Shown: in pieces, positions 22,305 through 36,256 of the stretch
Layout: each line of letters opens with the position of its first letter
How positions within the stretch are numbered: the first letter of the stretch is position 1
Translations under genes and position numbers: made by a program
The notes under the pieces: generated by a model
Told to the model about the DNA's origin: nothing
Database searches by the model: none
What the model saw: only the letters and a program-made list of their open reading frames with translations
Origin: Bdellovibrionota bacterium
GTDB lineage: Bacteria; Bdellovibrionota_G; JALEGL01; DATDPG01
DNA length: 36,256 nucleotides
Reading direction: 5' to 3'
Assembly: GCA_035292885.1 (NCBI GenBank)
Contig: DATDPG010000173.1
Span: 1 to 36,256, forward strand

Positions 22305-23171
22305 TTACGGATACTCAGCAGGGTTTTCAATCCAACCGAGAATTCTCAAAGAAGCGTTATCGGCGGCCTGAGTGACATAGCCGTATATTTTTTGTGGGTG
22401 TGTAATTGGCCATGAAAGATATTGGAAGATCGTGCCAGTCGCGGAAGTGGCTTTTAGCGCGGTTATGGATGAGTCACGGTGGGACGACAAAGACAGAGAA
22501 TCGTCAGGAGTCGGGCTCACCATATGCGCTCGTAGTCGAACGATCTTCGCTCCGATCGGAACTTTGAGCGTGTATTCCGTTATATTGGGTTCTATTGTCG
22601 TCTCCGTAATGTTGACATCAAACGCATAATTCCCTTGATTCATCTGAACGTTTCCACCCACCGACGTGAATGGGATGATTTCAGCCGCACCTCCCCCATC
22701 GGTGATGAACGCACCTAAATAAGTTGCCTGTCCTGCAAAACCGACTGGGCCGGAGTTCGGATCATTCAGGGAAGCAATAAGGTCAAAGCCGGTTCCTGAT
22801 TCGGCCGGGATGGCGTAGAGGTAATAAAGTGAATTAATGGCCACGGTGCCAGCGTCGATACCGTTTCGAACAGAGTTATCGACATTGAGAACCGCGTTGG
22901 CGCTATTTGAATAAATCGTTCCGTTGATGGCCACGCGGGAAGGTTGGGCGTTCGTTGCCGGGACAATCAGTTCTTTGACGTTTGCGTCGGCAGGCTTGGA
23001 ATAGAAGTCGGGTCGCCGCAACGATACAGCGATTGCTGCGCTAGCATCTTGACCGGCTGCCCCAGTGTCGCCCTTTTCCCCTTTTATGTCGTTTGCGCAG
23101 CCGAGAAGTAAAAGGAGGAAAGCTATTGAGAGCGCTCCGCGAGTTGCCAGGGTGGATTTAATTTCATGCAT
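22305..23171 (-). CDS. Lipoprotein with short collagen-like segment and beta-rich domain
   Basis: The product is 288 aa from ATG 23171, chosen because AAGGAG lies eight bases upstream and the next residues form a lipoprotein signal (IAFLLLLLGC, lipobox LLGC, lipidated Cys about residue 24). After the Cys comes a short collagen-type repeat (GEKGDTGAAGQD, four Gly-X-Y triplets). About 230 residues follow that look all-beta, with many Asn, Thr and Ser, and alternate hydrophobic residues. Collagen triplets followed by a beta domain often form trimeric surface stalks. Four triplets is very short for a stable triple helix. I do not recognise the C-terminal domain. An upstream in-frame start at 23285 would bury the signal peptide. 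Confidence 0.75.
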   Translation of the reverse strand: MHEIKSTLATRGALSIAFLLLLLGCANDIKGEKGDTGAAGQDASAAIAVSLRRPDFYSKPADANVKELIVPATNAQPSRVAINGTIYSNSANAVLNVDNSVRNGIDAGTVAINSLYYLYAIPAESGTGFDLIASLNDPNSGPVGFAGQATYLGAFITDGGGAAEIIPFTSVGGNVQMNQGNYAFDVNITETTIEPNITEYTLKVPIGAKIVRLRAHMVSPTPDDSLSLSSHRDSSITALKATSATGTIFQYLSWPITHPQKIYGYVTQAADNASLRILGWIENPAEYP

Positions 23172-23417
23172 TGTCTTGTCTCCTTTTGGATTCGGGCAGC
23201 CTAAAGCGTGGCGTCGGGTCTGCAAAGGACTTTTTGGTTCGTGATGGATCATCGGCGACGGACGGCTTATCAAGAGCAATGCCAAATTCGGCGCTGGTAA
23301 CTATTTGAAATATAACGACGATTCTGGCGTGAATTTGAGGTGGCTCCGTTCGGAATCTTGAGTTGAACCCCGTTGGTTTGGTTCTCGGTCGGTCTTGAGT
23401 CGTGCTAGCCTGCGCGC
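23172..23417. promoter_or_regulatory. Divergent intergenic region, lipoprotein and XPB operon
   Basis: This 246-nt region lies between divergent genes. The lipoprotein ribosome site (AAGGAG on the minus strand) is at its left end. No convincing sigma-70 pair, operator or small gene was seen. The helicase GTG at 23418 has no Shine-Dalgarno-like sequence, so leaderless or weak initiation is possible. Confidence 0.35.
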
Positions 23418-24818
23418 GTGCGGCTTCGCTTCGATCAGGGTTCTCTCGTCGTCGATCCGGAGGGGGTGGAAAAGCTCCCTTCGTGCGTCCGCTGGGATCC
23501 GCGTGTGGGGCTTTGGCGGGCGTTGGCGATGCACTTTTTCGATCTGAGGGCGTTTTGCCGGGCGGGAGGGGTTCCGTTCGCGGCGGAGTTTCTTCCATTC
23601 GCGACTCTCCAGAAAAAGATCGGGTCCAGTCGTGTGTCGCCTTTATTGCGGGCGTTTCAGGAGGAGGCGCTGGCGGCGTGGCGGGTGGAAAAAGGGAGGG
23701 GGGTGGTGATTCTTCCGACGGGCGCGGGGAAGACGCGGCTGGCGGTGGAGGCGATCGGGCGGACGAGCCGGTCGGCTCTGGTGGTCGTGCCGACGCTGGA
23801 GCTTTTGGCGCAGTGGTATTCGGTCCTCTCCGAGTCGTTTGGCGGCGAGGTCGGGAGACTGGGAGGGGGCGAGCACGAAATCCGACCGTTGACCGTGACG
23901 ACATACGACAGCGCGTATCGCTGGATCGATCGCTACGGAGACCGGTTCGCGCTTCTGGTCTTTGACGAAGTCCACCACCTGCCGGCGCCGAGTTACGTAC
24001 AGATCGCGCAGATGTCCGTGGCGCCGTTTCGACTCGGCCTCACGGCCACGTTCGAGCGGGGGGATTTCCGGCACGTGCCGCTGTCCGAGTGGGTCGGCCC
24101 CGTCGTCTACCGCCGGTCGATCGACGAACTTTCGGGCGAGGCTCTCGCTTCCTATCGAACCGAGATCCGAAAAGTGGAGATGACCGTCGTGGAAAAGGAG
24201 GAGTTCGAAACACAGGACCGGATCTATCGGACGTACCTCCGTCAGGCCGGGATTCGGGGGCGGAAGGCGTTCGATAGCTTGCTCGATTTGGCGGCGCGGG
24301 ACGGCCGGGCGTGGCGCGCGCTGGCGGCGCATCGTAGGGCCAGGCGAGTCGTGGCGGGAGCTTCGGCGAAAGTGGAGCTGGTCGGAGAGCTATTGGGGCA
24401 GTACGCGGACAGCAAGATATTGATCTTCACGGAGTATAACGACCTCGTTTACCGGCTTTCGAAAGAATATTTGATTCCCGCGATCACGCATCTGACGTCG
24501 CCGAAGGAGCGCCGGTGGATCTTATCGTCGTTTCGAGAGGGAAAAATCCGGGCGATCGTGACGTCGAAGGTCTTGAACGAGGGCGTGGATGTTCCGGAGG
24601 CGGACGTCGCGATTGTCTTGGGTGGAAGCGGGAGCCGTCGTGAGCATGTCCAGCGCTTGGGAAGGATTCTCCGTCCGCTTCCTGGGAAAGAAGCGCTCCT
24701 GATTGAAGTAATCACCAAAGCGGAGCGGGGTCTTTCCTACCGGCGGCGAAACGATTCGGCGTTCCGGCGGAAGCGTCCGGCGGCGCAACAGGAGCTACTT
24801 TTCAATGCTCACCAGTGA
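23418..24818 (+). CDS. Archaeal-type XPB (Rad25/Ssl2) superfamily 2 helicase
   Basis: The 466-aa protein follows archaeal XPB over its whole length. An N-terminal damage-recognition-like domain occupies about residues 1-75. Helicase domain 1 has Walker A TGAGKT (101-106), the DEVH box at 183-186 and LTAT at 208-211. A thumb-like insertion lies near 270-310. Helicase domain 2 has ILIFTEYNDLVYRLS, IPAITHLTS, LNEGVDVPEADV and QRLGRILRP. XPB enzymes are ATP-dependent 3'-5' DNA-opening motors. The RED motif after LTAT reads Arg-Gly-Asp here. The last 14 nt overlap the start of the Bax1-like gene, as expected for the known XPB-Bax1 helicase-nuclease complex. The GTG start matches the usual 'RLRF' beginning. 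Confidence 0.92.
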   Translation: MRLRFDQGSLVVDPEGVEKLPSCVRWDPRVGLWRALAMHFFDLRAFCRAGGVPFAAEFLPFATLQKKIGSSRVSPLLRAFQEEALAAWRVEKGRGVVILPTGAGKTRLAVEAIGRTSRSALVVVPTLELLAQWYSVLSESFGGEVGRLGGGEHEIRPLTVTTYDSAYRWIDRYGDRFALLVFDEVHHLPAPSYVQIAQMSVAPFRLGLTATFERGDFRHVPLSEWVGPVVYRRSIDELSGEALASYRTEIRKVEMTVVEKEEFETQDRIYRTYLRQAGIRGRKAFDSLLDLAARDGRAWRALAAHRRARRVVAGASAKVELVGELLGQYADSKILIFTEYNDLVYRLSKEYLIPAITHLTSPKERRWILSSFREGKIRAIVTSKVLNEGVDVPEADVAIVLGGSGSRREHVQRLGRILRPLPGKEALLIEVITKAERGLSYRRRNDSAFRRKRPAAQQELLFNAHQ

Positions 24819-26001
24819 GCTTCTCCGATATCGCGCGGAGGGGGGAGACATCCGTCCCTATCGACTGGATCGCCGGGCGCGAGTTTTGGCCTCGCGTCTG
24901 ATCGATGCCTATCGCTTGAGCCAAGGGAAGAAACGTTCTCTCCTCGACCGGTCGCTTTTGGAAGTGGAGGGGACGACATCGGACGTCGTCGTGGCGAGGG
25001 GACTCTCGAAGCTTTTGGAAGAGCGGGCGGTTTTTCTTTTGGATTCGCTGATCAATCCGGAGGAGGTTCGAAAGGAACTGTTTCGCCGGGCGGCGGAGCG
25101 AGGTGTTGTGCGTCGTGGATCGGAGGAGGCTCTGGGGGTCTTGCGAAGCGTAGCGGAGGAATTTTCGGTTTCGGTGCCGGACGTCGAGGCATCGCTCTTC
25201 GCCGATCTTCCCGAGGAGCGGCTGATGATCGAATTCACGCGGCCCGAGCCGGAGTGGTTGGTCGACCGGTACAATCTCGCCCAGGTGCAGGGACTGCTTT
25301 ATTCGGCCACCGCAATGAAATGCCGATTTGAAGGGGAGCTGCGGAAAATCTTCACGCACCTTCGATTGGGCCAGCTGATGTACACGATGACGTCGCTCGG
25401 AGTTGGAAAGTATGAGCTCGCCATCGACGGGCCCGTCTCGCTCCTGCGGCGAACAAGACGGTACGGAATTCGGATGGCGAAGTTCCTCCCCGCCGTATTG
25501 CTGGCCAAGGATTATCGGATCGAAGCGGCGCTGCAGATCCGCGGGTCCACTTACAAGCTCTCGATCGACCCGTCGTGGGGATTGAAGAGCCACTACAATC
25601 CGAACCCGGAGTTTGACAGCCGAATCGAACGCCAATTCTCCGAGCGGTTTCTGGCGCTGGAGTCTCCGTGGAAGCTCGAGCGGGAAGGAACGGTGATCGA
25701 TCTCGGCGGCCAGGTGATGATCCCGGACTTTACGTTCCGCCATCCGGACGGCCGCGTGGCTCATCTGGAAATCGTCGGGTTTTGGACGGAGAGCTATCTG
25801 GAGCGAAAACTAAAGAAACTGGCCGCCGTGAAAGGCGTGAGGTTGCTGGTGGCGGTATCCAAGACACTCGCGTGCCACGAAGCTCGTTTCTCGGACGCGG
25901 CGCGGATTCTCTGGTTCAAAGACAAACTGGATCCGAAGGACGTGTTGGCCCGACTCGATAGACCGTCTGACGACCGCGTGGTACTTTTCGAACGTGACTG
26001 A
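24805..26001 (+). CDS. Bax1-like nuclease (DUF790), partner of XPB
   Basis: The 398-aa product is recognisable as Bax1 (DUF790). It begins MLTSELLRYR, with ERLMIEFTRPEPEWLVDRYNLAQ-type middle motifs (LVDRYNLAQVQGLLY near 152) and GKYELAIDGPVSLLRRT near 201. The C-terminal part has PD-(D/E)XK-like nuclease features: acidic Glu269, Asp271 and Glu275, PDF at 307-309, and LEIVGFW at 321-327 with Glu322; the usual Lys is not at the canonical position. Bax1 is established as a structure-specific nuclease that binds archaeal XPB. The 14-nt overlap with the helicase gene fits a stoichiometric complex. It overlaps the HEPN gene by 8 nt. Repair is the likely role; defence is possible. Confidence 0.9.
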   Translation: MLTSELLRYRAEGGDIRPYRLDRRARVLASRLIDAYRLSQGKKRSLLDRSLLEVEGTTSDVVVARGLSKLLEERAVFLLDSLINPEEVRKELFRRAAERGVVRRGSEEALGVLRSVAEEFSVSVPDVEASLFADLPEERLMIEFTRPEPEWLVDRYNLAQVQGLLYSATAMKCRFEGELRKIFTHLRLGQLMYTMTSLGVGKYELAIDGPVSLLRRTRRYGIRMAKFLPAVLLAKDYRIEAALQIRGSTYKLSIDPSWGLKSHYNPNPEFDSRIERQFSERFLALESPWKLEREGTVIDLGGQVMIPDFTFRHPDGRVAHLEIVGFWTESYLERKLKKLAAVKGVRLLVAVSKTLACHEARFSDAARILWFKDKLDPKDVLARLDRPSDDRVVLFERD

Positions 26002-26380
26002 AGATCGATCACAGGACTGGCTTCGACAAGCCAAGAATGACCTGAAGTTTGCGCGTGTCGCGTTGGAGGGCGGGTTTTATTCGCAAACCTGCTTCATCTG
26101 TCAGCAAGCTGCGGAGAAAGCCATGAAGGCGACCTTGTATTCAAAAGGTGCGAAGGCTGTCATCACACATAGCCTGCGAAAATTGTGCGAAGAACTCGGT
26201 GTCAATTTGAAATTGATCGCGGCGGCCAAAGTCTTGGACCAATACTATCTTTCGGGGCGCTACCCCGATGCCTTGCCGGACGGCGCTCCATTTGAGACGT
26301 TTACCGAAACCCAGGCGCGCGACGCATTTCGAGACGCCAAGTTGTTCATCGCTCACGCGGTTCGTTGGATGAAATCATGA
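25994..26380 (+). CDS. HEPN-domain protein, first gene of a HEPN/MNT pair
   Basis: The 128-aa protein is a HEPN domain of the PF05168 type: WLRQAKNDLKFARVAL near residue 9, the cysteine-containing FICQQAAEKAMKATL near 34, THSLRKLCEEL near 58, and YYLSGRYPDALPDG near 84. No strict RX4-6H ribonuclease motif is present (the last helix has RDAKLFIAH with seven intervening residues), so RNase activity is doubtful. HEPN/MNT pairs act as toxin-antitoxin modules in some bacteria, in which the nucleotidyltransferase adenylylates the HEPN protein. The start is GTG, overlapping the end of bax1 by 8 nt, and its TGA overlaps the MNT start. Confidence 0.88.
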   Translation: MTEDRSQDWLRQAKNDLKFARVALEGGFYSQTCFICQQAAEKAMKATLYSKGAKAVITHSLRKLCEELGVNLKLIAAAKVLDQYYLSGRYPDALPDGAPFETFTETQARDAFRDAKLFIAHAVRWMKS

Positions 26381-26718
26381 GAAAATCAGCAAGTGTCATC
26401 TGGCCGAAGAGGTCTCGATGGACGCAGAAGGTCCTTTTGGCACGGCTGCAACGTGACCTTCGCGGACGGGTGGAAAAGGCCTATCTCTTTGGGAGCCATG
26501 CCCGCGAAACAGCGAGCGGGGAGAGCGACGTGGACCTGATCGTCGTGGCAAACACGCCGCGGGCATGGCCCGAACGCGGACGGGACTTCGGGGACCTATG
26601 GGATCGGTACGGCGCCGTGGATCTCCTGGTTTACACGCCGTCGGAGTGGAAAAGAATGAATGAGAGACATTCTCCTGTTCTTTGGCACGCGCGAAAACAC
26701 TGGAAGCGCGTCATCTGA
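26377..26718 (+). CDS. Minimal nucleotidyltransferase (MNT) of the HEPN/MNT pair
   Basis: This 113-aa protein has the polymerase-beta-type nucleotidyltransferase motif LFGSHARETASGESDVDLIVV, giving the GSH(A)R signature and the first two catalytic aspartates, and the third aspartate in GAVDLLVYT. Known MntA-type antitoxins transfer AMP to the partner HEPN toxin. I chose ATG 26377, whose ATGA overlaps the stop of the HEPN gene. A TTG at 26365 would add four residues. It is the last gene of the xpb-bax1-HEPN-MNT unit, and its stop lies three bases from the convergent TPR-like gene. Confidence 0.9.
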   Translation: MRKSASVIWPKRSRWTQKVLLARLQRDLRGRVEKAYLFGSHARETASGESDVDLIVVANTPRAWPERGRDFGDLWDRYGAVDLLVYTPSEWKRMNERHSPVLWHARKHWKRVI

Positions 26719-26721
26719 ACT

Positions 26722-27543
26722 TCAAAACCTTCGCGTGTAATAGACTCCGTCGGGGCGGACGGAAATCGAAGCGGCCTGCGTTTGGCGTTTGTGGACGATG
26801 ACGGCGTCGATGATCCCCCAGGCGGCGACGCCGATGCCGGCGCCGAGGGAGCTCCAGAACATCGCGCGGTAGACGGCCGCGGTTTCGGGGTCGCCGAACG
26901 TTCCTGAACTGTCTTTCTCTTCGTTAAATAGAATGATGCTCGCGATGGATAGGCTGAACGCGGCGATTTCGGTCGACATGAATGCGAGGCCTTTGACTTT
27001 TTGTTCATTCGCAAACTGGCCCACGCCGAAAGGGACGTAACGCTTCCACGCGTCATCCGTTTCTGTTGCGGCAGCTTCTTGGACCTGAAGGGATGCGGGC
27101 GCGGGCTCTGTCGGCGGTGCAGCGGTTACAGCGGCAGCCGGACCAGCCGGTGGAGCTGTTACCGTAGTCGCTGTGACGGCCGGGGGTTTTCCACCCTTGA
27201 TGGAGCCGAAGAGATTCGAACACGGTTTCGTTACGGCGATATCGTCGATCGTTTCCGTGGGGGAAAACGTCAGCAACGTCCGAAAATGCTCGGTGGCCTT
27301 CGTTTGGTCGCCCAGTTCGCACTGAGAAACTCCAAGGATGCGATGGGCCAGGATGATCTGCTCGACGGTGTCGAGAAGAAGATGATCCAGCAAGGGCTGA
27401 GCGACGTTGATCGCCTGCTTGTAGCGGCGCGCCTTGAGGTGATTCATCGCCCGATCGAGCTGTTCCAGGTTTGCGTCCGCGAGAACCGAGCCGCACGCAA
27501 AAAGCACTCCCAAGGCCGCAATTCGTGAAAGGCGCATTGGCAT
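26722..27543 (-). CDS. Exported TPR-like protein with proline-rich linker and membrane tail
   Basis: This 273-aa protein has a signal peptide (MPMRLSRIAALGVLFACGSVLA). A TPR-like helical region follows (residues about 24-95), with LKARRYKQAINVAQPLL and LGVSQCELGDQTKATEHF. A Pro/Ala/Thr-rich linker lies at about 117-158, and the C-terminal part has two hydrophobic helices beginning RYVPFGVGQFANEQKVKG. This architecture, especially the PFGVGQF segment, is one I associate with proteins of uncharacterised function in delta-proteobacterial genomes. The region 27544-27697 upstream should hold its promoter, but no clear boxes or ribosome site were seen. It converges with the MNT gene. Confidence 0.75.
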   Translation of the reverse strand: MPMRLSRIAALGVLFACGSVLADANLEQLDRAMNHLKARRYKQAINVAQPLLDHLLLDTVEQIILAHRILGVSQCELGDQTKATEHFRTLLTFSPTETIDDIAVTKPCSNLFGSIKGGKPPAVTATTVTAPPAGPAAAVTAAPPTEPAPASLQVQEAAATETDDAWKRYVPFGVGQFANEQKVKGLAFMSTEIAAFSLSIASIILFNEEKDSSGTFGDPETAAVYRAMFWSSLGAGIGVAAWGIIDAVIVHKRQTQAASISVRPDGVYYTRRF

Positions 27544-27697
27544 CGAAATTCAGAGAAAAGAGTGGAGCCAATATCGGGCGGGTGGAAACAGAAGTAAACA
27601 TTTTTCTCGGGTCCGAATCGGCCCCACTCCTTGGTTCAAGCAGGAAGGTGTCCCTGGACGCTGCCAGCCCGGACCGAGCCGTAGTCGCCCGCTTTTT

Positions 27698-28189
27698 CTA
27701 GTCCGACGTAACGTCGATCTTTCGCGTCTGCCTTTTCGCTTCCACCGTTTTGGGCAGGCGGATCGTCAGCAACCCCTTCTTGAACGAAGCTTCCACCTTG
27801 TCGTCCGCAACGGCGCAGGGGAGCTCAATGATCCGCCCAAACGAGCCAAACGTTCGCTCCACGCGGAAATGGGTTTCCCCTTTTTCCTCCTGCTCCGCTT
27901 TCTTTTCCCCGCGAATCGTCAGTTGATTTTCGAACAGGGAAACGTCGATCTCTTTTTCCTCCATCCCCGGTAGTTCCGCGGTCACTTTAACGTCGCTCTC
28001 CGACTCGACCACGTCCACGCGTGGGATGTATCCCGAAAGCCGGGTTTCGGTCGTGGCCAGCGGTGTCAGAGCAAACGGCCGGTCAAAGTCTTCCAGAAGC
28101 CGCTCCATGTCCAACCACAAAGATCCGAAAGGATCCCAATCATTGCGACGGGTCAATACGTCATTTCGTCGAATTACTAATGAGTTCAT
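27698..28189 (-). CDS. hsp20: Small heat-shock protein, Hsp20/alpha-crystallin family
   Basis: The 163-aa chaperone has a short N-terminal region (WDPFGSLWLDMERLLEDF), an alpha-crystallin domain from about residue 50 (PRVDVVESESDVKVTAELPGMEEKEID, LTIRGEKKAEQEEK, FGRIIELPCAVADDKVEASFKKGLLTIRLPK) and a C-terminal I-x-V type motif (KIDV). It would hold unfolding proteins in the cytoplasm. The odd feature is its start. The ATG at 28189 has no ribosome-binding site and lies inside the terminal repeat of a roughly 160-bp palindromic element. A strong GGAGGAG site lies 170 nt upstream, in front of an 8-codon mini-frame on the other side of the element. Expression may therefore be impaired or newly regulated. 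Confidence 0.93.
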   Translation of the reverse strand: MNSLVIRRNDVLTRRNDWDPFGSLWLDMERLLEDFDRPFALTPLATTETRLSGYIPRVDVVESESDVKVTAELPGMEEKEIDVSLFENQLTIRGEKKAEQEEKGETHFRVERTFGSFGRIIELPCAVADDKVEASFKKGLLTIRLPKTVEAKRQTRKIDVTSD

Positions 28190-28346
28190 AAGTATGTCTA
28201 CAGATTGCGAGCGGATTTTGAGCCGAGACTAGGAAGACAAGCGGGAAAACCGGAGGCGTATCCGCTGCGATACGTTGAGGCTTTTCCCGCGAAGTCTGAC
28301 GACGTCGCAGGCCAAAAGACGCCGCAAGATGTGGGTATACTTATGA
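28186..28346 (-). repeat. Palindromic element copy A (about 161 bp) at hsp20 start
   Basis: The two ends are inverted copies (tcataagtat on the left, its complement on the right), and similarity continues inward in both arms, including gcgggaaaa. At the centre is a hairpin: stem CGTATC (28257-28262) and GATACG (28269-28274) with a six-base loop. Read on the minus strand the core is CTCAA, the stem, then GCAGCG as loop. A second copy at 32499-32658 has the same length, ends and core. With outer flanks the inverted repeat extends to 28174-28358. Confidence 0.75.
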
Positions 28347-28364
28347 ATTCATTAGTAAGTTCAT
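28341..28364 (-). other. Eight-codon mini-frame with strong ribosome site, orphaned hsp20 leader
   Basis: On the minus strand GGAGGAG-ACAA precedes ATG at 28364. The frame encodes MNLLMNS and stops at TAA 28341-28343, inside the palindromic element. Its first 12 bases resemble the true hsp20 start at 28189 (ten of twelve identical). This looks like the original hsp20 translation-initiation site, cut off by the element. A leader peptide is the alternative. Confidence 0.45.
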
Positions 28365-28428
28365 TTGTCTCCTCCCATGAAAATGTTCTAAGGAGAAGAA
28401 AGTCACCGATGCCGGTTTGTCAAGGCCT

Positions 28429-29130
28429 CTAAGAGCGTCTTTGGCAGGCGCGAATAAATGCCCGAAATAATTTGCGGGATTCGGATCGGTGGGGAATTTC
28501 CTCGGGATGCCATTGAATTCCCAAGGCAAATGTACGGTTCGTCGTTTCAATCGCTTCCACGACGTCGTCCGGGGAAAGGGCGACCGTTTTCAACCGGCGC
28601 CCCGGCCGGCCGATCGCTTGGTGATGCCGGCTATTCACACGTACTCTTGTTCTCCCGAGGATTTTTCGGAGCCGGGAACCCGCCGCAAGATGAATCCAAT
28701 GTTCCCCCTTTCGATGTTCCCGTGTCCCCGGTTTTTCGCTCGGTAGGTCCTGAATCAGATTGCCACCAAGGGCCACGTTGAGAGTTTGGCATCCCAAGCA
28801 GACACCGAGGAACGGTTTTCGGTTCCGGACGAATGCCCGGGTTATCGCAAGCTCGAAGCGCGTTCGTTCATCCGGGGAGAGATCGAGTTTAACCTTCGGC
28901 ATTCTTGCGCGAAAGAACTTCGGATGGATGTCCCCGCCCCCCGTGAGCATAAGTCCATCGAGTAACGTGAGATAATTTGAAATATGCCGCCGGTTCGGCG
29001 TGAGGACGATGCAATCGCCTCCCGCGGCTTCCACGGCTCGCACGTAGCTTCGATACGTCCCGATCAACTCCCGGTGGGTTTTGGTTCGAATCATGTGGGG
29101 CGAAATTCCGATGAGCGGCCTGCGCGGCAT
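28429..29130 (-). CDS. Class I glutamine amidotransferase-like hydrolase (PuuD / peptidase C26)
   Basis: This 233-aa protein is a gamma-glutamyl hydrolase of the C26 family. LMLTGGGDIHPKFF lies near residue 60; the nucleophile elbow GVCLGCQ has Cys111 as nucleophile; and GIQWHPEE near 204 supplies His208 and Glu210 of the triad. PuuD-type enzymes cleave gamma-glutamyl-GABA in putrescine breakdown, but related members hydrolyse other gamma-glutamyl amides. No other puu genes are present here, so the substrate is open. The gene is divergent from the Nudix gene by 50 nt. No ribosome site is seen before its ATG. Confidence 0.9.
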   Translation of the reverse strand: MPRRPLIGISPHMIRTKTHRELIGTYRSYVRAVEAAGGDCIVLTPNRRHISNYLTLLDGLMLTGGGDIHPKFFRARMPKVKLDLSPDERTRFELAITRAFVRNRKPFLGVCLGCQTLNVALGGNLIQDLPSEKPGTREHRKGEHWIHLAAGSRLRKILGRTRVRVNSRHHQAIGRPGRRLKTVALSPDDVVEAIETTNRTFALGIQWHPEEIPHRSESRKLFRAFIRACQRRS

Positions 29131-29180
29131 ATCGAGGGTAATTGTAACTTCATTCCAGCTGACATAGAAGGTGAAGCTTG

Positions 29181-29585
29181 ATGACCCGAAGCCAACGAGT
29201 GCGTGTCGTGGCGGCCTTGATCGAGCGCGAGGGAGAAATCCTCATCGCCCAACGACCCTTCCAAGGCGTCTTCCCCGGCAAATGGGAATTTCCCGGGGGC
29301 AAAGTCCGTCCGGATGAAAGGGACGAAGCGGCGCTCGCTCGCGAGTTGGAGGAGGAACTAAACGTGCGGCCGAGAATCGGCGCCCGCGTGGCCGAAATCG
29401 ACCACGATTATTCCCATCTCTCGGTCAAAATTCTTTTCTATCGCTGCTTTCTAGATGGGCGCGAGTTATTGCATCCGCGCGAGCATGCGGAGTTGCGGTG
29501 GGTCAGGCCTTCCGAATTGACGTCGTTCGACTTTTTGGAAGCGGACCTCGACCTGGTGGAACAGTTGAAGGACGGCAAACTATAA
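29181..29585 (+). CDS. Nudix hydrolase, MutT-like
   Basis: This 134-aa protein contains a complete Nudix box: G-x5-E-x7-REL-x-EEL in GKVRPDERDEAALARELEEEL, preceded by FPGKWEFPGG. That arrangement is typical of MutT, which hydrolyses 8-oxo-dGTP to keep oxidised guanine out of DNA; related enzymes use other nucleotides. The C-terminal WVRPSELTSFDFLEADLDLV also fits MutT-like proteins. The ATG at 29181 has GAAGGTGA upstream. A TTG directly before it is an alternative start. The gene ends tail to tail with the PilZ gene, with a 6-nt overlap of stop regions. Confidence 0.93.
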   Translation: MTRSQRVRVVAALIEREGEILIAQRPFQGVFPGKWEFPGGKVRPDERDEAALARELEEELNVRPRIGARVAEIDHDYSHLSVKILFYRCFLDGRELLHPREHAELRWVRPSELTSFDFLEADLDLVEQLKDGKL

Positions 29586-29933
29586 ACTTCGAGTCTCGTG
29601 TTCCACGAATTTGGCGATACGTTCTCGATCCGTTTCTTCGATTCCGGTGAATTTGATTCCCATGCCGCTCGAGTTCGGTTCATTTTGCCCCGTCTGCCGG
29701 TAGGTCCAGACCACCTGCCCATCGGCTTCAATCGGCGCCCCGTCTCCGGGCAATCGGAAGCGCATCTTCACCGCCGTACCTATCGGATGCAATTGCTTCG
29801 TCCGGACGAACGCGCCCCCGATCGACACGTTTTCCAGTTTGGTTAGGTAGTACTTCCCGTACGTCGAAAGATCGATGTCCAGCTCGACTTTTGCGCGCGG
29901 CCCGGCTTGCCGTTTATCGAGGTTTTTCGGCAT
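29580..29933 (-). CDS. PilZ-domain cyclic-di-GMP-binding protein
   Basis: This 117-aa single-domain protein shows the PilZ pattern. Two arginines lie near the N-terminus (Arg8 and Arg13), then NVSIGGAFV near residue 35, matching the (D/N)xSxxG c-di-GMP-binding motif, and the barrel end GMGIKFTGI. The arginines are separated by four residues rather than the usual three, so binding may be weakened. Such proteins link c-di-GMP levels to motility, exopolysaccharide output or development. An EAL phosphodiesterase encoded at 32667 could act on the same messenger. The gene is divergent from trxB. Confidence 0.88.
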   Translation of the reverse strand: MPKNLDKRQAGPRAKVELDIDLSTYGKYYLTKLENVSIGGAFVRTKQLHPIGTAVKMRFRLPGDGAPIEADGQVVWTYRQTGQNEPNSSGMGIKFTGIEETDRERIAKFVEHETRSL

Positions 29934-29959
29934 ATTTCTACGATATCACGATCTAAATC

Positions 29960-30008
29960 GCCGACAAACAGGGCGTGTTATCCGCCCGGGGCGGAAGATC
30001 TTGTCGGC
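29960..30008 (+). promoter_or_regulatory. Nested inverted repeat overlapping the trxB promoter
   Basis: An outer 8-bp inverted repeat (GCCGACAA at 29960-29967, TTGTCGGC at 30001-30008) encloses an inner hairpin (TCCGCC-cgg-GGCGGA, 29981-29995). The right outer arm begins with TTGTCG, which forms a candidate -35 box. Seventeen bases later TAGAGT (30024-30029) is a plausible -10. A regulator bound to the repeat would occlude the promoter. Transcription would start only a few bases before the trxB ATG. Confidence 0.4.
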
Positions 30009-30040
30009 TACGGCCCGGCTGAGTAGAGTGCCCCTGCCAT

Positions 30041-30955
30041 ATGGAGAATGTCATCATTATAGGGTCCGGTCCCGCAGGGTTGACGGCCGCCATCTATGCG
30101 TCACGCGCCCTGCTCAAACCGCTGATGTTCGAGGGTTACCAGGCCGGTGGGCAGTTGATGATTACCACCGATGTGGAGAACTATCCCGGCTTTCCCGAAG
30201 CGGTGATGGGCCCGGAGCTGATGAAGCTTTTTCGAAGACAAGCGGAACGGTTCGGGACGCGAATTGAAACCAAGGATGTCACACGCGTTGAATTCAAGCG
30301 GCGGCCGTTTGTTGTGGAAGTGGGTGACGAGAAATACGAGACCAAAGCCGTCATCATCGCGACCGGAGCCACGGCAAAGTTGATCGGCTTGGAATCCGAG
30401 CGGCGCCTCATGGGACACGGGGTGTCCGCGTGCGCAACGTGCGACGGCGCCTTCTTCCGAAATCAAAAAGTTCTGGTCGTCGGGGGAGGGGACACGGCGA
30501 TGGAGGAAGCCCAGTTCCTGACGCGATTTGCGTCGAAGGTGACCGTCGTGCATCGGCGGAACCAGCTGCGAGCGTCAAAAATCATGCAGGAAAAAGCGAT
30601 GAAGAACCCGAAAATCGATTTTGTCTGGGATTCCGTCATCGAGGAAATTCTAGGCGGCAACGAAGTCCGGGGGGCCCGTCTCAAGAGCGTCAAGACCGGC
30701 CAGACGTTCGAAGTGGAATGCCAGGGCGTATTCGTGGCCATCGGCCACCAGCCGAACACGAAACTCTTCGAAGGACAGGTCAAAATGAACGACGTCGGCT
30801 ACATCGTCCCGCACGATGGGACCAAAACCAGTGTCGAAGGCGTGTTTGCCAGCGGCGATGTGCAGGATCCTACGTACCGGCAGGCGGTGACGGCGGCCGG
30901 CACCGGCTGCATGGCCGCCATCGATTGCGAACGCTACTTGGAGCACCACGGTTAA
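30041..30955 (+). CDS. trxB: Thioredoxin reductase
   Basis: This 304-aa flavoprotein has the bacterial thioredoxin-reductase layout: an FAD-binding GSGPAG at residues 8-13, the redox-active CATC pair (Cys131 and Cys134) in [11 protein letters not shown], the NADPH-binding GGGDTA at 148-153 followed by HRRNQLRAS, and the FAD-closing [10 protein letters not shown] near 271. It passes electrons from NADPH to thioredoxin in the cytoplasm. The ATG has no Shine-Dalgarno sequence, and the best promoter match would give a nearly leaderless transcript. It heads an operon with the rhodanese remnant, a membrane protein and a phosphodiesterase. Confidence 0.97.
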
Positions 30956-30990
30956 CGCGTCGGCCGGAATTTCCATCGGAGGCAAAAACC

Positions 30991-31194
30991 ATGAAAGAGA
31001 TCACAGCGACGGAACTGAAACAGCGTTTGGATAAAGGAGAACCGCTTGTGCTTCTCGACGTGCGGGAACAGAACGAATACGACCACTGCCGAATTCCGGG
31101 CGCGAAGCTGATCCCGTTGCGCCAAATCCCCGGCCGGACCGGCGGAATCGACGCCTGGTCGGCCGACGTCGACCCGGCAATACCGCGGTATTAA
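30991..31194 (+). pseudogene. Rhodanese-like protein lacking the catalytic middle (67 aa)
   Basis: The frame starts at ATG 30991 with GGAGG eight bases upstream. It begins as a normal rhodanese domain (ITATELKQRL, VLLDVREQNEYDHCRIPGA) and ends as one (GGIDAWSADVDPAIPRY). The roughly 35 to 40 residues usually found between them, including the active-site Cys loop (VVHCxxGxRS) and the NLxGG strand, are missing. The join IPLRQIPGR-TGGIDAW is in frame, so this looks like a clean internal deletion that removes sulfur-transfer activity. The next gene starts immediately after its stop, so translation through the frame may still matter for coupling. An assembly error is possible. Confidence 0.75.
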
Positions 31195-31704
31195 ATGCCC
31201 TATGCGCTGTTGAGTTTTCTCTGGACCTCGTTAGTCGGTGTTTTCCTGCTGGTCGGCTCGGGCCTTCGCCTGTGGCAGACGGCCAACCCGCTTCAGACGC
31301 ATGTCATCTTTGCTTTGAGCGCCGTGACGTTGGCGCTCTTCGCCCACACGATGACGATGTTTTATTTCATCGGCACCGGGAAAAAAATCAAGGACTTCAT
31401 GGCCGAATGGGAACCGGAGATTCGGGACGAGTTCCGCCGCAGAACGATTGAAACCAAACGAAAACTCTTTCCCTGGATGCTTCTTTCCTCCGGGGCGTTG
31501 ATGGCTGCGTTCATTTTAGGCGGAGCCGCCGACGCCCGCGTCGTGCAGAAGACCATTCACGTGGCCAGCGCTTATTTCGCGCTGATCGCCCATGTGCACG
31601 GCGTCGGCCTCGAAACGATTCATATCTTCCGAAATATTTCGCTGATTCACGAGATCAACGATCTGGCCCGGCGCCGCCACATCTCGGCTGCGGCCTCTTC
31701 ATGA
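31195..31704 (+). CDS. Four-helix membrane protein with conserved-looking histidines, unknown function
   Basis: I do not recognise a named family. The 169-aa protein has four predicted membrane helices (about residues 3-23, 34-58, 95-112 and 119-140) and a charged cytoplasmic loop between helices 2 and 3 (KKIKDFMAEWEPEIRDEFRRR). Histidines occur within or at the ends of helices (His36, His51, His122, His133, His135), an arrangement compatible with haem-b ligation as in small cytochrome-b-like subunits, though nothing proves it. Its ATG follows the rhodanese TAA with no spacer, and its TGA overlaps the next ATG. Being co-transcribed with trxB suggests a redox-related role. Confidence 0.65.
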   Translation: MPYALLSFLWTSLVGVFLLVGSGLRLWQTANPLQTHVIFALSAVTLALFAHTMTMFYFIGTGKKIKDFMAEWEPEIRDEFRRRTIETKRKLFPWMLLSSGALMAAFILGGAADARVVQKTIHVASAYFALIAHVHGVGLETIHIFRNISLIHEINDLARRRHISAAASS

Positions 31705-32504
31705 GCTCTGAATCGAGTCACCGGTTTCAACCGAAGCCGCATCGGCCTTTATCAAACGGTGTCTGGGCGATCGGACATCGCGGTTTCCCGACAGCGGCCC
31801 CGGAGAATACGCTGGCGTCCTTCCGCCGTGCCATCGATGCCGGAGCGGACATGATCGAGTTCGACGTTGCGTTAAGCAAAGACGGCTGCCCCGTCGTGAT
31901 TCACGATCCGACGGTTCGCAGAACGACGAACGGCCATGGCTCGGTGAAACGGCTGACGCTGGAAGACCTCCGAAAACTGGATGCCGGCAGCTGGTTTTCG
32001 CGGGAGTTTGCCGGTGAGAAAGTGCCTACGCTCGAAGAGGTCATGGACCTTGCGGCGGAGAGGGTCTGTCTCAACATCGAAATCAAGAAAGAAGCGGTTT
32101 CCCGGACCGGTACGGACGGCATCGAGGCGAAAATCGTTTCTCTGCTGCGCCAAAGGGGCCTCGTCGAACACACGGTGATCTCGTCGTTTTCTCCCAAGGC
32201 CGTTCGGCGGGTGAAGGCGCTCGATCCAACTCAATCCGCGGCGCTGCTTTTGGGGCGTGCCCCGGTTCGAGTCCCTCTGAAACAAGTCCATGCCGTGGAC
32301 GCCGACGCCGTACATCTTTCGTACCGCCGGCTCAAGAAGAAATGGATCGAACAGCTTGTGCAAGCCGGAATACCTGTTCGTGCATACACCGTGAACGAAG
32401 TCTCCGACATGCGCCGTATGATCGAATGGGGCGTAGACGGCCTCTTCACCGACCGCATCGATCGTCTCCGGGCCGTGATCGACGAATTGGAACCGGTCTC
32501 ATAA
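31701..32504 (+). CDS. Glycerophosphodiester phosphodiesterase
   Basis: This 267-aa protein has the GDPD TIM-barrel signatures: AIGHRG (His26, Arg27), PENTLASFRRAIDAGADMIEFDV (Glu53, Asp55 for metal) and VVIHDPTVRRTTNG (His68 acid/base), later INIEIKKE-type strand (CLNIEIKKE) and the final GVDGLFTDR. It hydrolyses glycerophosphodiesters to glycerol-3-phosphate and an alcohol. No signal peptide is visible, so it is probably cytoplasmic, like UgpQ. It starts in a 4-nt ATGA overlap with the membrane-protein gene. Its TAA stop lies within the end of palindromic element copy B. Confidence 0.93.
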   Translation: MSSESSHRFQPKPHRPLSNGVWAIGHRGFPTAAPENTLASFRRAIDAGADMIEFDVALSKDGCPVVIHDPTVRRTTNGHGSVKRLTLEDLRKLDAGSWFSREFAGEKVPTLEEVMDLAAERVCLNIEIKKEAVSRTGTDGIEAKIVSLLRQRGLVEHTVISSFSPKAVRRVKALDPTQSAALLLGRAPVRVPLKQVHAVDADAVHLSYRRLKKKWIEQLVQAGIPVRAYTVNEVSDMRRMIEWGVDGLFTDRIDRLRAVIDELEPVS

Positions 32505-32658
32505 ATAGCTTCTGCTCCGCCCGGCTGCAAAGGCTGCCAGCTGCGTTCTCGGGGCCAAACGCCCTCAACGTACTGCAGAGAGTACGCTTCCGGGCATTTG
32601 GCCCCTGCGGCCTTGCTGACAGCCTTTTCGCTCGGGCTCGCGACGAACCCATTTATGA
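32499..32658 (+). repeat. Palindromic element copy B (about 160 bp) between convergent genes
   Basis: The ends are inverted copies (ctcataaat at 32498-32506, atttatgag at 32651-32659). Inside are arms aaggctg-cagc and ggggccaaa-gccc (32551-32564 against 32592-32605, one mismatch in that block). The centre is a hairpin, CGTACT (32569-32574) and AGTACG (32581-32586), with a six-base loop GCAGAG. It lies between the phosphodiesterase and EAL genes and could act as a bidirectional terminator. Length, termini and the CCTCAACGTA core match copy A at 28186. Confidence 0.75.
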
Positions 32659-32666
32659 GGCCGGTT

Positions 32667-34004
32667 CTAAGCCTTCGGTAGGTTTTTCAGATTCAGTTCC
32701 GGGAAAGGCGGTCCCGGTTTCGCGAAGAAATATCCCTGGGCGTAATCGATCTCGAATTCCCGGAGGACGTCAAAATCCTCCGCGGTTTCTACGCCCTCGG
32801 CGACCGTGTCCGCGTCGATCGATTTGGCCAGGGCGTGCAGCGCTTTGAGCATCGCTTTTTTCCCCTGGTTTTCATGGACGCCGCGAACGATGGAAGCGTC
32901 GATTTTCACGTATCTCGGCTTGATTTCCATGATCGCTTCCAGGCTGGAATAGCCGGCGCCGACATCGTCGATCGCAATCGTGATCCCGGCTTCGGTGTAA
33001 TAACTGATCGCCTGTTTGAAATGCGAGTACTGCTCGATCGCATTTCGCTCCGTGATTTCGAACACGATATCTTCAATCGGCATTTCGTTGGCTTCGAGAA
33101 ATTTGAGAAAGGAACTCATTTCAAAATCGGGGTCGTAGATCAGGTTGGGCAGCGTATTGACGAAAAGCTTGCGGCCCCTCGGCTTTCCTTTCGCGTTGAT
33201 GATCGCGCGTTTTCGGCAGAGGCGATCCAGTTCGAAGACGAGGCCGGTCTCCTCCGCCAGCGTGAACAGTATGATGGGCGCCTCGATCTCCGAGTTGCGG
33301 GGACCCCGGCTGAGCGCTTCGTAGCCCATGATTGACATGTCCTTGAGGCGGACGATCGGCTGGTAGAGTGTATAAATCTTTTCTTCAAGGACGATTTTCT
33401 GGAGCCGGCCGCGATTCTTGAGCTCCAGCTGCGACATATGCAGCTTGGCGATCTCCCGTGCTTCGTCGATCAGGTTGTAAATCGTCCGCCGGGAACGGAT
33501 CATCGGATTGTGGACGACGAACGAATAACCGACGTTGATTTTCGGAAGGCCCTTCAGATAGTTGTAAAGCTCAAAAAAGAGCGTCGAGTGGAGATAGTTT
33601 TGGACCCGCTCGCAAACCATCTCGACATCGTCCTTGGAGAGGACATGTCCGGTCTGCTCCTTCCGCGTCTCCGACAAGAAGATGATGTAGGAATACCCCT
33701 GCACCTCAGTGACGGTGACCAGATCCTTGTTTCGAATCGTGACCCCTCGCATCGCCATGAGAACCGTGGCGATTTTCTGCATGATCTGTTCGAAGAGCTT
33801 GCTTCCGAATTTTTCCTCGATCTTGCCCAAGCGCCGGCCGTCCACGTAAAGCAGTCCCAGGGCGTTGTCTTTCTGAAGGAGCGTCTCCAGCTCGGTCAAG
33901 AGCACCAGGTAGCTCGGCAAGCCGCGAAACTCGTCGAACAGTCGTTCCTTAAATGACTTGGTCACAGGTCCCCTAGAAGTGTTTAGAATCGTAGGGAAAT
34001 CCAT
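32667..34004 (-). CDS. EAL-domain cyclic-di-GMP phosphodiesterase with degenerate GGDEF-like domain
   Basis: The 445-aa protein has an N-terminal region (about 30-190) folded like a GGDEF domain (LLYVDGRRLGKIEEKFG) but with no GG(D/E)EF active site. The C-terminal EAL domain (about 205-435) keeps the catalytic residues: Glu229 in EAL, Asn283, Glu316, Asp346-Asp347 in IDDVGAGYSS, Lys367, Glu403 and Gln423. It should hydrolyse c-di-GMP, perhaps with the GGDEF remnant as sensor or dimer module. No membrane helix is seen. The ATG at 34004 lacks a ribosome site. A GTG at 33965 has AGGGG just upstream and would leave more room for the divergent promoter, so it is a serious alternative. Confidence 0.92.
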   Translation of the reverse strand: MDFPTILNTSRGPVTKSFKERLFDEFRGLPSYLVLLTELETLLQKDNALGLLYVDGRRLGKIEEKFGSKLFEQIMQKIATVLMAMRGVTIRNKDLVTVTEVQGYSYIIFLSETRKEQTGHVLSKDDVEMVCERVQNYLHSTLFFELYNYLKGLPKINVGYSFVVHNPMIRSRRTIYNLIDEAREIAKLHMSQLELKNRGRLQKIVLEEKIYTLYQPIVRLKDMSIMGYEALSRGPRNSEIEAPIILFTLAEETGLVFELDRLCRKRAIINAKGKPRGRKLFVNTLPNLIYDPDFEMSSFLKFLEANEMPIEDIVFEITERNAIEQYSHFKQAISYYTEAGITIAIDDVGAGYSSLEAIMEIKPRYVKIDASIVRGVHENQGKKAMLKALHALAKSIDADTVAEGVETAEDFDVLREFEIDYAQGYFFAKPGPPFPELNLKNLPKA

Positions 34005-34033
34005 GTTAGATGTCGACTTTTTAAAGGGTTTAA

Positions 34034-34363
34034 ATGTCCGAAGAAGACAAAATCGTCTGTTCCAAGTGTGAAAAGATCATTCGCTACGAACGACCGCTCT
34101 TTTGTCCGTATTGCGGTGCAAAGCTCGAACCGGTCGAGGACCTGCTCAATTCGGACGACCGGAGGGAAGTGTATCGATGGTCTCACGCAGCGCCGCTTCT
34201 CATGAATCTATTCTTCGGATGGTTGTTACTTCTTCTGCCCGCCAGCTGGATCTGGGGAAAAGCGGGGATTTTCTGGCTCTCAATCCTGTTCACGGGGATC
34301 CTTATCGTCGCATTCGTGGGATTTCTGGTGTTCAGCGGAATGGGCGCAAAGAAGCGGTCTTGA
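34034..34363 (+). CDS. Small zinc-ribbon protein with two membrane helices
   Basis: This 109-aa protein has four cysteines in two CxxC knuckles (Cys9, Cys12, Cys24, Cys27), typical of a small zinc ribbon, followed by an acidic linker. Two hydrophobic helices follow (about 55-74 and 80-103) and a basic end GAKKRS. Zinc-ribbon membrane proteins of this kind are widespread and uncharacterised. It is divergent from the EAL gene with 29 nt between listed starts. Its last 32 nt overlap the 3' end of the convergent exported-protein gene. Confidence 0.75.
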   Translation: MSEEDKIVCSKCEKIIRYERPLFCPYCGAKLEPVEDLLNSDDRREVYRWSHAAPLLMNLFFGWLLLLLPASWIWGKAGIFWLSILFTGILIVAFVGFLVFSGMGAKKRS

Positions 34364-35054
34364 AAGGGTCGGGAGCGGACCGGAGAAGATTCGACCGGAA
34401 GAGTCCGGCGAAGACATCGAAAGCAATGTCGCGTGAGGTGTCCCAACGATCACGGAACGCCCCCTTCTCTCGTAAACGATCAAACGAGACCGGTACGGAA
34501 TTCACCGATTCCTCCGCGTTGTTGTCGAAGACGGTAAACTGAATTCCATATCTGAGAGTGTCGTGTTTACCATTGCAAAGTTCCCGCAGTGCTTCATCCA
34601 CTTGCCGCCTCTGATCATCCGTCATCCGACCGGGGTATACGGCCCGATCCTTTTGTCGAAAGAATCGATAGACGACCCCATCCACGATAGTTGAAAAGTC
34701 ATAGAGATTCTCAGCGTACGCCTGACCTGTGGCGATGGGAACCGATCGAAAGAATATGCCCAAGTCCTTTGTGTTGTATTCCAAAATACCCGGCGTAGAT
34801 CCAATAAGGTCTGTGGACCGCTTTACATCGGAATGAAAGCAGATCGCCGTGGGATAGGTTCTCAGTTGATACCCCTCCGTGTCAGCGTTCGGGCCGGCAA
34901 TCATTTTGGCGGTCAGCCGAAGTTTATCGTTCTTAAATAACTGCATCATTGTCTGCAGCGTGAGGTTCGGCCGAGACGTGCCCGACCGTGTCTTGGCAAA
35001 CGAGATACCCATCGTCGTCGCGATGAGGATTAAAAGTAAAAGAAACTTCTTCAT
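34332..35054 (-). CDS. Exported protein of unknown function (240 aa)
   Basis: I do not recognise the family. From ATG 35054 the product begins with a clear signal peptide (MKKFLLLLILIATTMGISFA), and GGAG lies six bases before the start. An in-frame start at 35099 would bury the signal. The mature part is alpha/beta with charged segments, including YRFFRQKDRAVYPGRMTDDQRRQVDEALREL near residue 130. A single Cys lies in AICFHSDVKRS, and another in ELCNGKHD. It is probably periplasmic. The 3' end overlaps the zinc-ribbon gene on the other strand by 32 nt, which is unusual but both frames look coding. Confidence 0.65.
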   Translation of the reverse strand: MKKFLLLLILIATTMGISFAKTRSGTSRPNLTLQTMMQLFKNDKLRLTAKMIAGPNADTEGYQLRTYPTAICFHSDVKRSTDLIGSTPGILEYNTKDLGIFFRSVPIATGQAYAENLYDFSTIVDGVVYRFFRQKDRAVYPGRMTDDQRRQVDEALRELCNGKHDTLRYGIQFTVFDNNAEESVNSVPVSFDRLREKGAFRDRWDTSRDIAFDVFAGLFRSNLLRSAPDPFKTASLRPFR

Positions 35055-35287
35055 TCGAGTCTCCGACGGTCTAAGAGCAAATCCAGGGCCAGAATGCAAG
35101 CAATGATTTCAATAGCTTGTATGGCATGTTCGCGGGGCATTAGAGGGTGCATGAGGTAAGCGTGGGACACGAAGCAAGGGCATGTGTAAGAACGACTGAC
35201 GAATATTTCGTTGCAACCGCCCCGCGTCGCCAATTCATCGCCGTTATCTTGGGAATTGTCCTCGACCTGCGATAGGATCTCCGCCCG
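35055..35287. promoter_or_regulatory. Divergent intergenic region upstream of the histone-fold gene
   Basis: This 233-nt region lies between the exported-protein start and the zinc-finger/histone gene. It contains a small inverted repeat ACGAA-tat-TTCGT (35199-35211), possibly an operator, and AGGATC about ten bases before the ATG at 35288. A frame on the minus strand crosses it into the histone gene, but it has no ribosome site and overlaps coding DNA, so I do not count it. No clear promoter boxes were found. Confidence 0.35.
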
Positions 35288-35767
35288 ATGAGTACCCTTG
35301 AGCCGGCATGGCGGCGATGCGCTTCGTGCAAGAAACGGATTGGCTTCGACCAGCGCTACTGGGCATGCAGCGTATCGACTTGCAATCGATCCCGCACCGG
35401 CGTTGTTTTCTGCAGTGTAACGTGCTGGGATCAGCATGTGCCGATTCTCCGGCATCGAGACGCGTATGCGGAAGAGGCACGATCACCGACGAAGAAAGAA
35501 TGGGAGAATATGTTGAACGAACAAAAAACGACCGATGAAACCACCGACGGCGAGACAAGCGTGGAATCAGGAACCCCACAACAGGAGCAGGAAGTTCTCG
35601 TCGTCGCGTCCAAAGTGAAGGCGTACATTCGCCGGCAAGCGGACATGAACACTTCCGCGGATGTCATGAAATCGCTTTCCGGAAAGATCCGAAAGCTTTG
35701 CGACGATGCGATAGGCCGCGCGAAAGAATCCGGCCGAAAAACGGTCCTCGACCGGGACATTTTGTAG
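35288..35767 (+). CDS. Zinc-finger/histone-fold fusion protein (Bd0055-like histone domain)
   Basis: This 159-aa protein has two parts joined by an acidic, disordered linker (about 68-100). Residues 8-60 carry Cys11, Cys14, Cys27, Cys32, Cys42, Cys46, His50 and His56, spaced like a HIT/MYND-type cross-brace zinc finger. Residues 102-159 (VLVVASKVKAYI, MNTSADVMKSL, AKESGRKTVLDRDIL) match the bacterial histone fold of Bdellovibrio Bd0055 closely as I recall it, including the GRKTV(x)xRDI loop-helix shared with archaeal histones. The third helix is cut short compared with Bd0055. DNA binding or chromatin organisation is likely; the zinc finger may bring a partner. It is a single-gene unit, convergent with the helicase fragment. 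Confidence 0.8.
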   Translation: MSTLEPAWRRCASCKKRIGFDQRYWACSVSTCNRSRTGVVFCSVTCWDQHVPILRHRDAYAEEARSPTKKEWENMLNEQKTTDETTDGETSVESGTPQQEQEVLVVASKVKAYIRRQADMNTSADVMKSLSGKIRKLCDDAIGRAKESGRKTVLDRDIL

Positions 35768-35786
35768 TCTTGTACGCGATCTCGCT

Positions 35787-35805
35787 GCCTCTGGTTCCGA
35801 GAGGC
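35787..35805. terminator. Hairpin between convergent genes, possible weak terminator
   Basis: GCCTCT-ggttccg-AGAGGC forms a perfect 6-bp stem with a seven-base loop between the histone-fold and helicase genes. No proper T-run follows on either strand, so factor-independent termination would be weak. Confidence 0.3.
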
Positions 35806-35837
35806 CAATGGTTTAATGAAAGCACCCTGCTCGGGAT

Positions 35838-36245
35838 TTATTGGGGCGGGGGCTGAAGGTACCCGAGCGATTCGCCGGAACGTGAAGAATCTTCGAGACG
35901 ACGATGGAATTCGACGACGGAAGGGTCGACGCGGATCGACGATTCATCCCAACCGGTAAGTGTCAGGCCGTCTCCGCTTCGTAGCCGGCTTAACGCCACA
36001 TAAGCCTGGCCCGGCTCCCAAAGGCGGCGGAGATCGCAGACCATGCTGTCGAGTGTCGCTCCCTGGGCTTTGTGAATCGTCGTAGCGTAAGCCAGTGTGA
36101 GAGGAAAGTTAGTGGCACTCTTGTCCAAAACAGCTTGAAGATTTTTGAATCGGAAGGCCGATAAAACCTCGCGCCGGCGAAGAAACTCATTGCATACACC
36201 AACTCCTCGTCGCCGTTGCGTCCTTCTTTTCGTCTGGAGAATTTC
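35838..36245 (-). CDS. C-terminal fragment of a Pif1/RecD-like superfamily 1B helicase
   Basis: The frame carries the last helicase motifs of this family: [20 protein letters not shown] (motif V-like), [18 protein letters not shown] (motif VI) and the closing [16 protein letters not shown]. Residues before it ([21 protein letters not shown]) also read as protein. The frame is closed by a stop at 36246-36248, only eight bases from the window edge, although the Walker A and other motifs must lie further upstream. So either a frameshift lies near 36180-36245 or the gene is a broken remnant. A start at TTG 36128 would give a useless 96-aa piece. I treat it as a partial gene. Confidence 0.7.
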
Positions 36246-36256
36246 TTAAGATCTCA

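Follow-up and report, generated by a model that had tools for sequence, protein, structure and literature searches.

Two probably independent modules, XPB-Bax1 and HEPN-MNT, in an overlapping four-gene block of a Bdellovibrionota bacterium

Do genes whose reading frames overlap one after the other encode the parts of one machine, or can such an arrangement bring together partners that are functionally unrelated? The question is raised by four genes in a stretch of 36,256 nucleotides (nt) from a Bdellovibrionota bacterium (contig DATDPG010000173.1 of assembly GCA_035292885.1), which was analyzed at full length and is termed the window in the following. The genes occupy positions 23418-26718 on the + strand and encode a superfamily 2 (SF2) helicase of the XPB type, the nuclease Bax1 (DUF790), a HEPN protein and a minimal nucleotidyltransferase (MNT). 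A preliminary description of the sequence had proposed that they form a single unit, i.e., a DNA-processing machine linked to an abortive or regulatory switch and serving either stress-coupled repair or an undescribed defence module. We consider it very probable instead that a mobile HEPN-MNT module has docked, specifically in this lineage, behind a mobile XPB-Bax1 repair pair, and that the four genes do not constitute one dedicated system.

Gene order at Bax1 and HEPN loci

XPB-Bax1 and HEPN-MNT each occur elsewhere, separately from one another. Bax1 neighbourhoods were collected as follows. Of 40 plasmid records matching Bax1, six were opened; a genome collection supplied the best 80 of its 589 confirmed loci; a set of 385 bacterial genomes contributed the 27 that passed the cut-off, with the window's own genome left aside; and another 30 loci belong to a phylum that has DUF790 in 81 of 195 genomes. 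A Bax1 model recognized its target in 143 of 143 loci; 141 of these are distinct loci other than the window's. Depending on the source, the flanks in view measured as much as 8 kb, some 6 kb or some 1.5 kb, and less at contig ends. With models built from 55 HEPN and 38 MNT sequences, which recovered 61/61 and 51/61 of the training loci, respectively (not an independent test), a HEPN-MNT pair beside Bax1 was found at 0 of the 141 loci. Nor did a HEPN gene follow Bax1 at any other Bax1 locus examined. Note that some loci stop soon after Bax1 (e.g., L034, L082 and L164), where a downstream gene could lie out of view, and that very divergent HEPN proteins were possibly missed, as Pfam was applied to 26 neighbour proteins alone. 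MNT-like matches turned up at three Bax1 loci, about 0.5 kb upstream of Bax1 in one case (L071, E 2e-4) and more than 5 kb away in the other two (L073, L087). They were dismissed as chance neighbours because no HEPN gene stands alongside.

Homologues of the window HEPN protein detectable by BLAST are present in 110 of the 385 bacterial genomes (own genome included), the best one outside the window sharing 47% identity. At all 29 nearest HEPN loci fetched, MNT resides beside HEPN, both as judged by the MNT model and by phmmer (28 loci) or motif (one locus), and at none of these 29 is XPB or Bax1 in view. In seven genomes that contain both DUF790 above the cut-off and a protein among the HEPN homologues listed (G015, G071, G111, G125, G150, G262 and G378), the two either do not share a contig or are separated by at least about 78 kb. 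A further PF05168 protein is encoded elsewhere in the window's own genome, on a different contig and preceded by an MNT-like open reading frame (ORF). A literature search found no paper title on the combination of XPB-Bax1 with HEPN. The preliminary description had named recurrence of the four-gene order in unrelated genomes as the mark of a single system, and its restriction to this genome as the mark of the opposite. Our sample is broad, though incomplete, and contains no closely related counterpart of the window operon. Within it, the order was seen in the window alone, which speaks against one fused machine. The proposal of an undescribed defence module fared no better: when ten flanking window proteins were compared with PADLOC, the NUDIX protein alone gave a match, and this to a candidate model (PDC-S07).

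The physical arrangement itself had been described correctly. The helicase gene (23418-24818, 466 amino acids, GTG start) shares 14 nt (ATGCTCACCAGTGA, 24805-24818) with the Bax1 gene (24805-26001, 398 amino acids), which shares 8 nt (GTGACTGA, 25994-26001) with the HEPN-T gene (25994-26380, 128 amino acids, GTG start), and the latter overlaps the MNT gene (26377-26718, 113 amino acids, ATG start) by the 4 nt ATGA (26377-26380), all on the + strand. The ORFs agree with these coordinates and overlaps, and Pfam families, and for XPB and Bax1 also solved relatives, agree with the four gene identities. For MNT, the ATG at 26377 was taken as start; the mechanical ORF list begins at an upstream TTG (26365). 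The GTG start of the HEPN gene agrees with the conservation of R5, D8 and W9 (19, 18 and 27 of 29 aligned rows, respectively), and inspection by eye revealed no obvious Shine-Dalgarno sequence for this gene. The layout is operon-like, with successive overlaps of genes on the same strand, and the four genes probably share one transcription unit. Promoter-like sites between 22100 and 27800 are not above chance (2 found, 1.9 expected). The window also has other same-strand overlaps of 4 nt, e.g., at 31701-31704 and 1055-1058.

The two modules and their predicted action

The helicase combines the Pfam domains XPB_DRD (43 bits), ResIII, Helicase_C, DEAD and ERCC3_RAD25_C (49 bits) and bears a Walker A motif PTGAGKT (residue 100), DEVHH (183) and FERGD (212), the latter placing R-G-D at the RED position. 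Its best solved relatives are two chains labelled 'DNA repair protein RAD25', 6p66 and 2fwr (E 5e-112), the first of which comes from the XPB-Bax1 complex of A. fulgidus. The best match of the helicase in the PADLOC defence library is PbeA, presumably a phosphorothioation-type restriction helicase; this may be read as a sign of common ancestry of XPB and helicases of that type. Weaker PADLOC matches are likewise restriction-type helicases. Bax1 belongs to DUF790 (PF05626, 396 bits). Among solved chains it matches 8gy8, a putative IF-2 homologue according to its label (E 2e-40), as well as four chains that bear the name Bax1 (E 4e-36 to 1e-29). Both proteins score under the NCBIfam cut-offs (XPB 185.6 vs 610; Bax1 196.1 and 175.9 vs 500; models NF045503, NF053694 and NF053695) and were therefore not assigned to these narrower models. 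In the alignment with A. fulgidus Bax1, D308 of the window protein falls on D305 and E322 on E318, both of them active-site residues according to the available part of PMC7293015, and the third A. fulgidus acid, E275, aligns beside the invariant E275 of the window protein when the alignment is read by eye. The N-terminal site of window Bax1 may differ, because D134/P136, with E137 adjoining, replace D133/E135 of the A. fulgidus enzyme.

The distribution of DUF790/Bax1 found here is wider than the archaea and cyanobacteria given in the available part of its 2005 description (PMC1189080). Bax1 passes the cut-off in 28 of the 385 genomes, the window's own being counted, and in 81 of the 195 genomes of the phylum mentioned above; the 40 plasmid records include Deinococcus and haloarchaeal plasmids bearing XPB-Bax1. 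Viral contigs, scanned with window Bax1 and with a Bax1 alignment, and a phage collection yielded no Bax1 relative. No new Bax1 locus came from the phyla to which three near relatives (4, 1 and 1 genomes searched) and G341 (9 genomes) belong. The 14-nt XPB/Bax1 overlap (ATGCTnACnnnTGA and variants) is present at 11 other distinct loci and, by sequence, in G260 (L004, L005, L006, L008, L009, L025, L036, L043, L153, L163, L164 and L166). Carriers are three Deinococcus plasmids, two haloarchaeal plasmids, Salinibaculum, a Gemmatimonadota genome, bacterium BMS3Bbin03 and the genomes G150, G197 and G268. In one large phylum, 4 of 28 scorable loci have 14 nt, and 7 nt is the commonest overlap (17/28). 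A conserved Bax1 start may explain part of the constancy. In trees of 28 chosen rows, eight rows accompany the window protein, and they are the same for XPB (100/98) and Bax1 (90/95). This agreement between the trees is consistent with XPB and Bax1 having moved together as a pair. Since the genome encodes a full UvrB (1059 bits), XPB-Bax1 comes on top of the excision repair that is usual in bacteria. At cyanobacterial loci (L012-L089), XPB often lies kilobases from Bax1 or out of view, unlike in the coupled pairs elsewhere.

The HEPN protein matches PF05168 with 93 bits and its neighbour PF01909 with 36.5 bits. MNT has an intact GSX10DXD motif, matches candidate (PDC) families in PADLOC and stays under the cut-off of the NCBIfam model for MntA (28.4 vs 60 bits). 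A pattern scan of the whole HEPN sequence found neither RX4HXY nor RX4-6H. The protein does contain H59, Y85 and R89-YPD, and in a 30-row alignment with near homologues R89 and Y85 are invariant, while H59 is common to 27 rows. Such a protein conforms to the HEPN-T variant for which the available text of PMC3710099 describes an alternative histidine. Among the near homologues, RX4-6H occurs in 17 and RX4HXY in one of 29, counted anywhere in the sequence rather than placed at the active site; because the patterns vary in this crude test, the family does not appear uniform. The pair is best accounted for as a Class II HEPN/MNT pair (PF05168/PF01909) as defined in the accessible part of PMC7641770. 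HEPN-MNT has been characterized as a mobile module (PMC2701414), and rampant lateral mobility is ascribed to HEPN domains in PMC3710099, as far as its available text goes.

How the four proteins would act can be sketched from their relatives. XPB would open the DNA where a lesion or fork lies, and Bax1 would cut near the junction, activities that are known for the archaeal members and are transferred here by homology and motifs. By analogy with Class I HepT/MntA, nucleotidylation by MNT, probably of a conserved tyrosine, would be expected to keep the HEPN partner inactive. A toxin action of HEPN is something we infer for this locus, since the 2020 paper, in its available part, knew no biochemistry on Class II (PMC7641770). 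On this view, what is probably a single transcription unit now contains two independent, horizontally mobile modules, HEPN-MNT having docked behind Bax1 in this lineage in such a way that the HEPN start now overlaps the Bax1 stop.

Alternative explanations and base composition

In principle, the four genes could also act jointly, and this in two ways: Either they form a dedicated system, in which XPB-Bax1 engaging damaged or foreign DNA would free HEPN from MNT control and so couple dormancy or suicide to repair or defence, or the XPB-Bax1 operon has acquired the HEPN-MNT nucleotidylation switch as a regulator gated by damage or invasion, with MNT modifying HEPN (or Bax1/XPB) and failed DNA processing releasing the HEPN effector. 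Several observations weigh against the docking of two separate modules. The four genes lie on one strand with three successive overlaps, and no terminator-like site was found between 22100 and 27800, where 8.0 are expected. The 8-nt Bax1/HEPN overlap is unusual, because HEPN overlaps its upstream gene in none of the 15 nearest HEPN-first pairs with a callable start (six more unassessed); in five of the 15, the upstream gene ends 2-30 nt before HEPN. Fusions of HEPN domains with restriction-system helicases and nucleases have arisen repeatedly, a theme found in the available part of PMC3710099. XPB matches the PbeA model with a best E of 4.5e-49 and scores 120.7 bits against TIGR04095, a model for Dnd restriction with a cut-off of 600. 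At one Poribacteria locus (L011:2478-3250) a different, divergent PF05168 protein (27.7 bits, cut-off 22) is followed by a 115-amino-acid protein missed by the MNT model and then by Bax1, with no XPB in view; the genome has 20 PF05168 matches, and our final HEPN model scores this protein at E 0.0016 only, as compared with the 27.7 bits in Pfam. Furthermore, the nearest tree rows share only 49% (XPB) and 40% (Bax1) identity with the window proteins, the sample contains no close operon relative, and the tree position of the window is unsure because its end branches are long (1.1 for XPB and 1.04 for Bax1).

In spite of these points, we regard a dedicated four-gene system as unlikely. Its gene order was seen at none of the 141 Bax1 and none of the 29 nearest HEPN loci, the helicase, with 378 bits for archaeal XPB and 166 bits for PbeA, is nearer to the former, the ten flanking proteins include no named defence system, and the window HEPN is devoid of RX4-6H. 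Recruitment of the switch as a regulator likewise has a low probability in our judgement. A joint function confined to this lineage retains some of it, because DUF790 occurs in one of five genomes of the window's phylum and a close operon for comparison is lacking. It is also improbable that HEPN-MNT serves as an addiction module that stabilizes XPB-Bax1 as mobile cargo without any biochemical interaction. The plasmids of Deinococcus and haloarchaea and the mobility of HEPN-MNT would suit this idea, but at the six plasmid loci opened, no HEPN or MNT was annotated or detected nearby, and integrase or transposase families are absent from the ten flanking window proteins scanned.

The base composition bears on the remaining alternative, a chimeric contig joining unrelated segments. 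The content of guanine and cytosine (G+C) steps up near position 23000, from about 49% (1-23000) to about 59-61% close to the step and 52-61% over 23000-36256. This step, however, lies upstream of or at XPB and not between Bax1 and HEPN, and misassembly is an unlikely source of two conserved genes whose ends are intact and overlap, so that an artefact is hardly credible. The four genes have 62.5% (XPB), 59.1% (Bax1), 52.7% (HEPN) and 58.8% (MNT) G+C, compared with 46-51% for 11 genes on the left and 54-59% for nine on the right. The contrast with the glycan cluster to the left, to which the preliminary description had drawn attention, is thus real; it is the left genes, however, that are the outlier, as six unmasked stretches of the own genome have 52.5-55.9% (54.6% together). 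G+C at third codon positions (GC3) is 0.75 for XPB and 0.71 for Bax1, similar to right-flank genes such as 30041-30955 (0.73), 0.66 for MNT and 0.60 for HEPN. The lower HEPN value may hint at a separate origin; the hint is weak because the gene is short. The neighbours on the left encode Wzz-type and polysaccharide-synthesis proteins, those on the right Hsp20, a peptidase C26, NUDIX, thioredoxin-reductase-like and GDPD proteins. If, as we consider very probable, HEPN-MNT docked behind XPB-Bax1 as a separate module, tight overlap of four genes can come from two unrelated mobile modules. Overlap alone is no proof of one machine.

Comparison with known systems

Similarity to the helicases of PbeA/Dnd-type restriction is confined to XPB, which stays far below the TIGR04095 cut-off, and no other Pbe or Dnd protein is present among the neighbours scanned. 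With the type VII toxin-antitoxin system HepT/MntA (Class I), the window shares a GSX10DXD-containing MNT next to HEPN. In contrast to that system, its HEPN belongs to PF05168 and not to PF01934 or PF08780 and does not contain RX4HXY, and its MNT falls below the MntA cut-off. Features shared with the archaeal XPB-Bax1 complex, known from A. fulgidus (PMC7293015, available part), are the following: the XPB and DUF790 genes are adjacent here as well, XPB has the DRD and helicase motifs, and two Bax1 acids match. Differences are the UvrB of the window's host, R-G-D instead of R-E-D in XPB, the middle residue of which varies across the 28 XPB rows, and the N-terminal Bax1 site. In the window HEPN precedes MNT, as it does at 21 of the 29 nearest loci (MNT-HEPN at the other eight), whereas MNT almost always comes first according to the available text of PMC3710099. 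Class II HEPN/MNT pairs, as the accessible part of PMC7641770 presents them, correspond to the window in the PF05168 family, the missing RX4HXY, the conserved tyrosine and the neighbouring MNT with GSX10DXD; what sets the window apart from them is that its HEPN gene resides directly behind XPB-Bax1 and overlaps Bax1.

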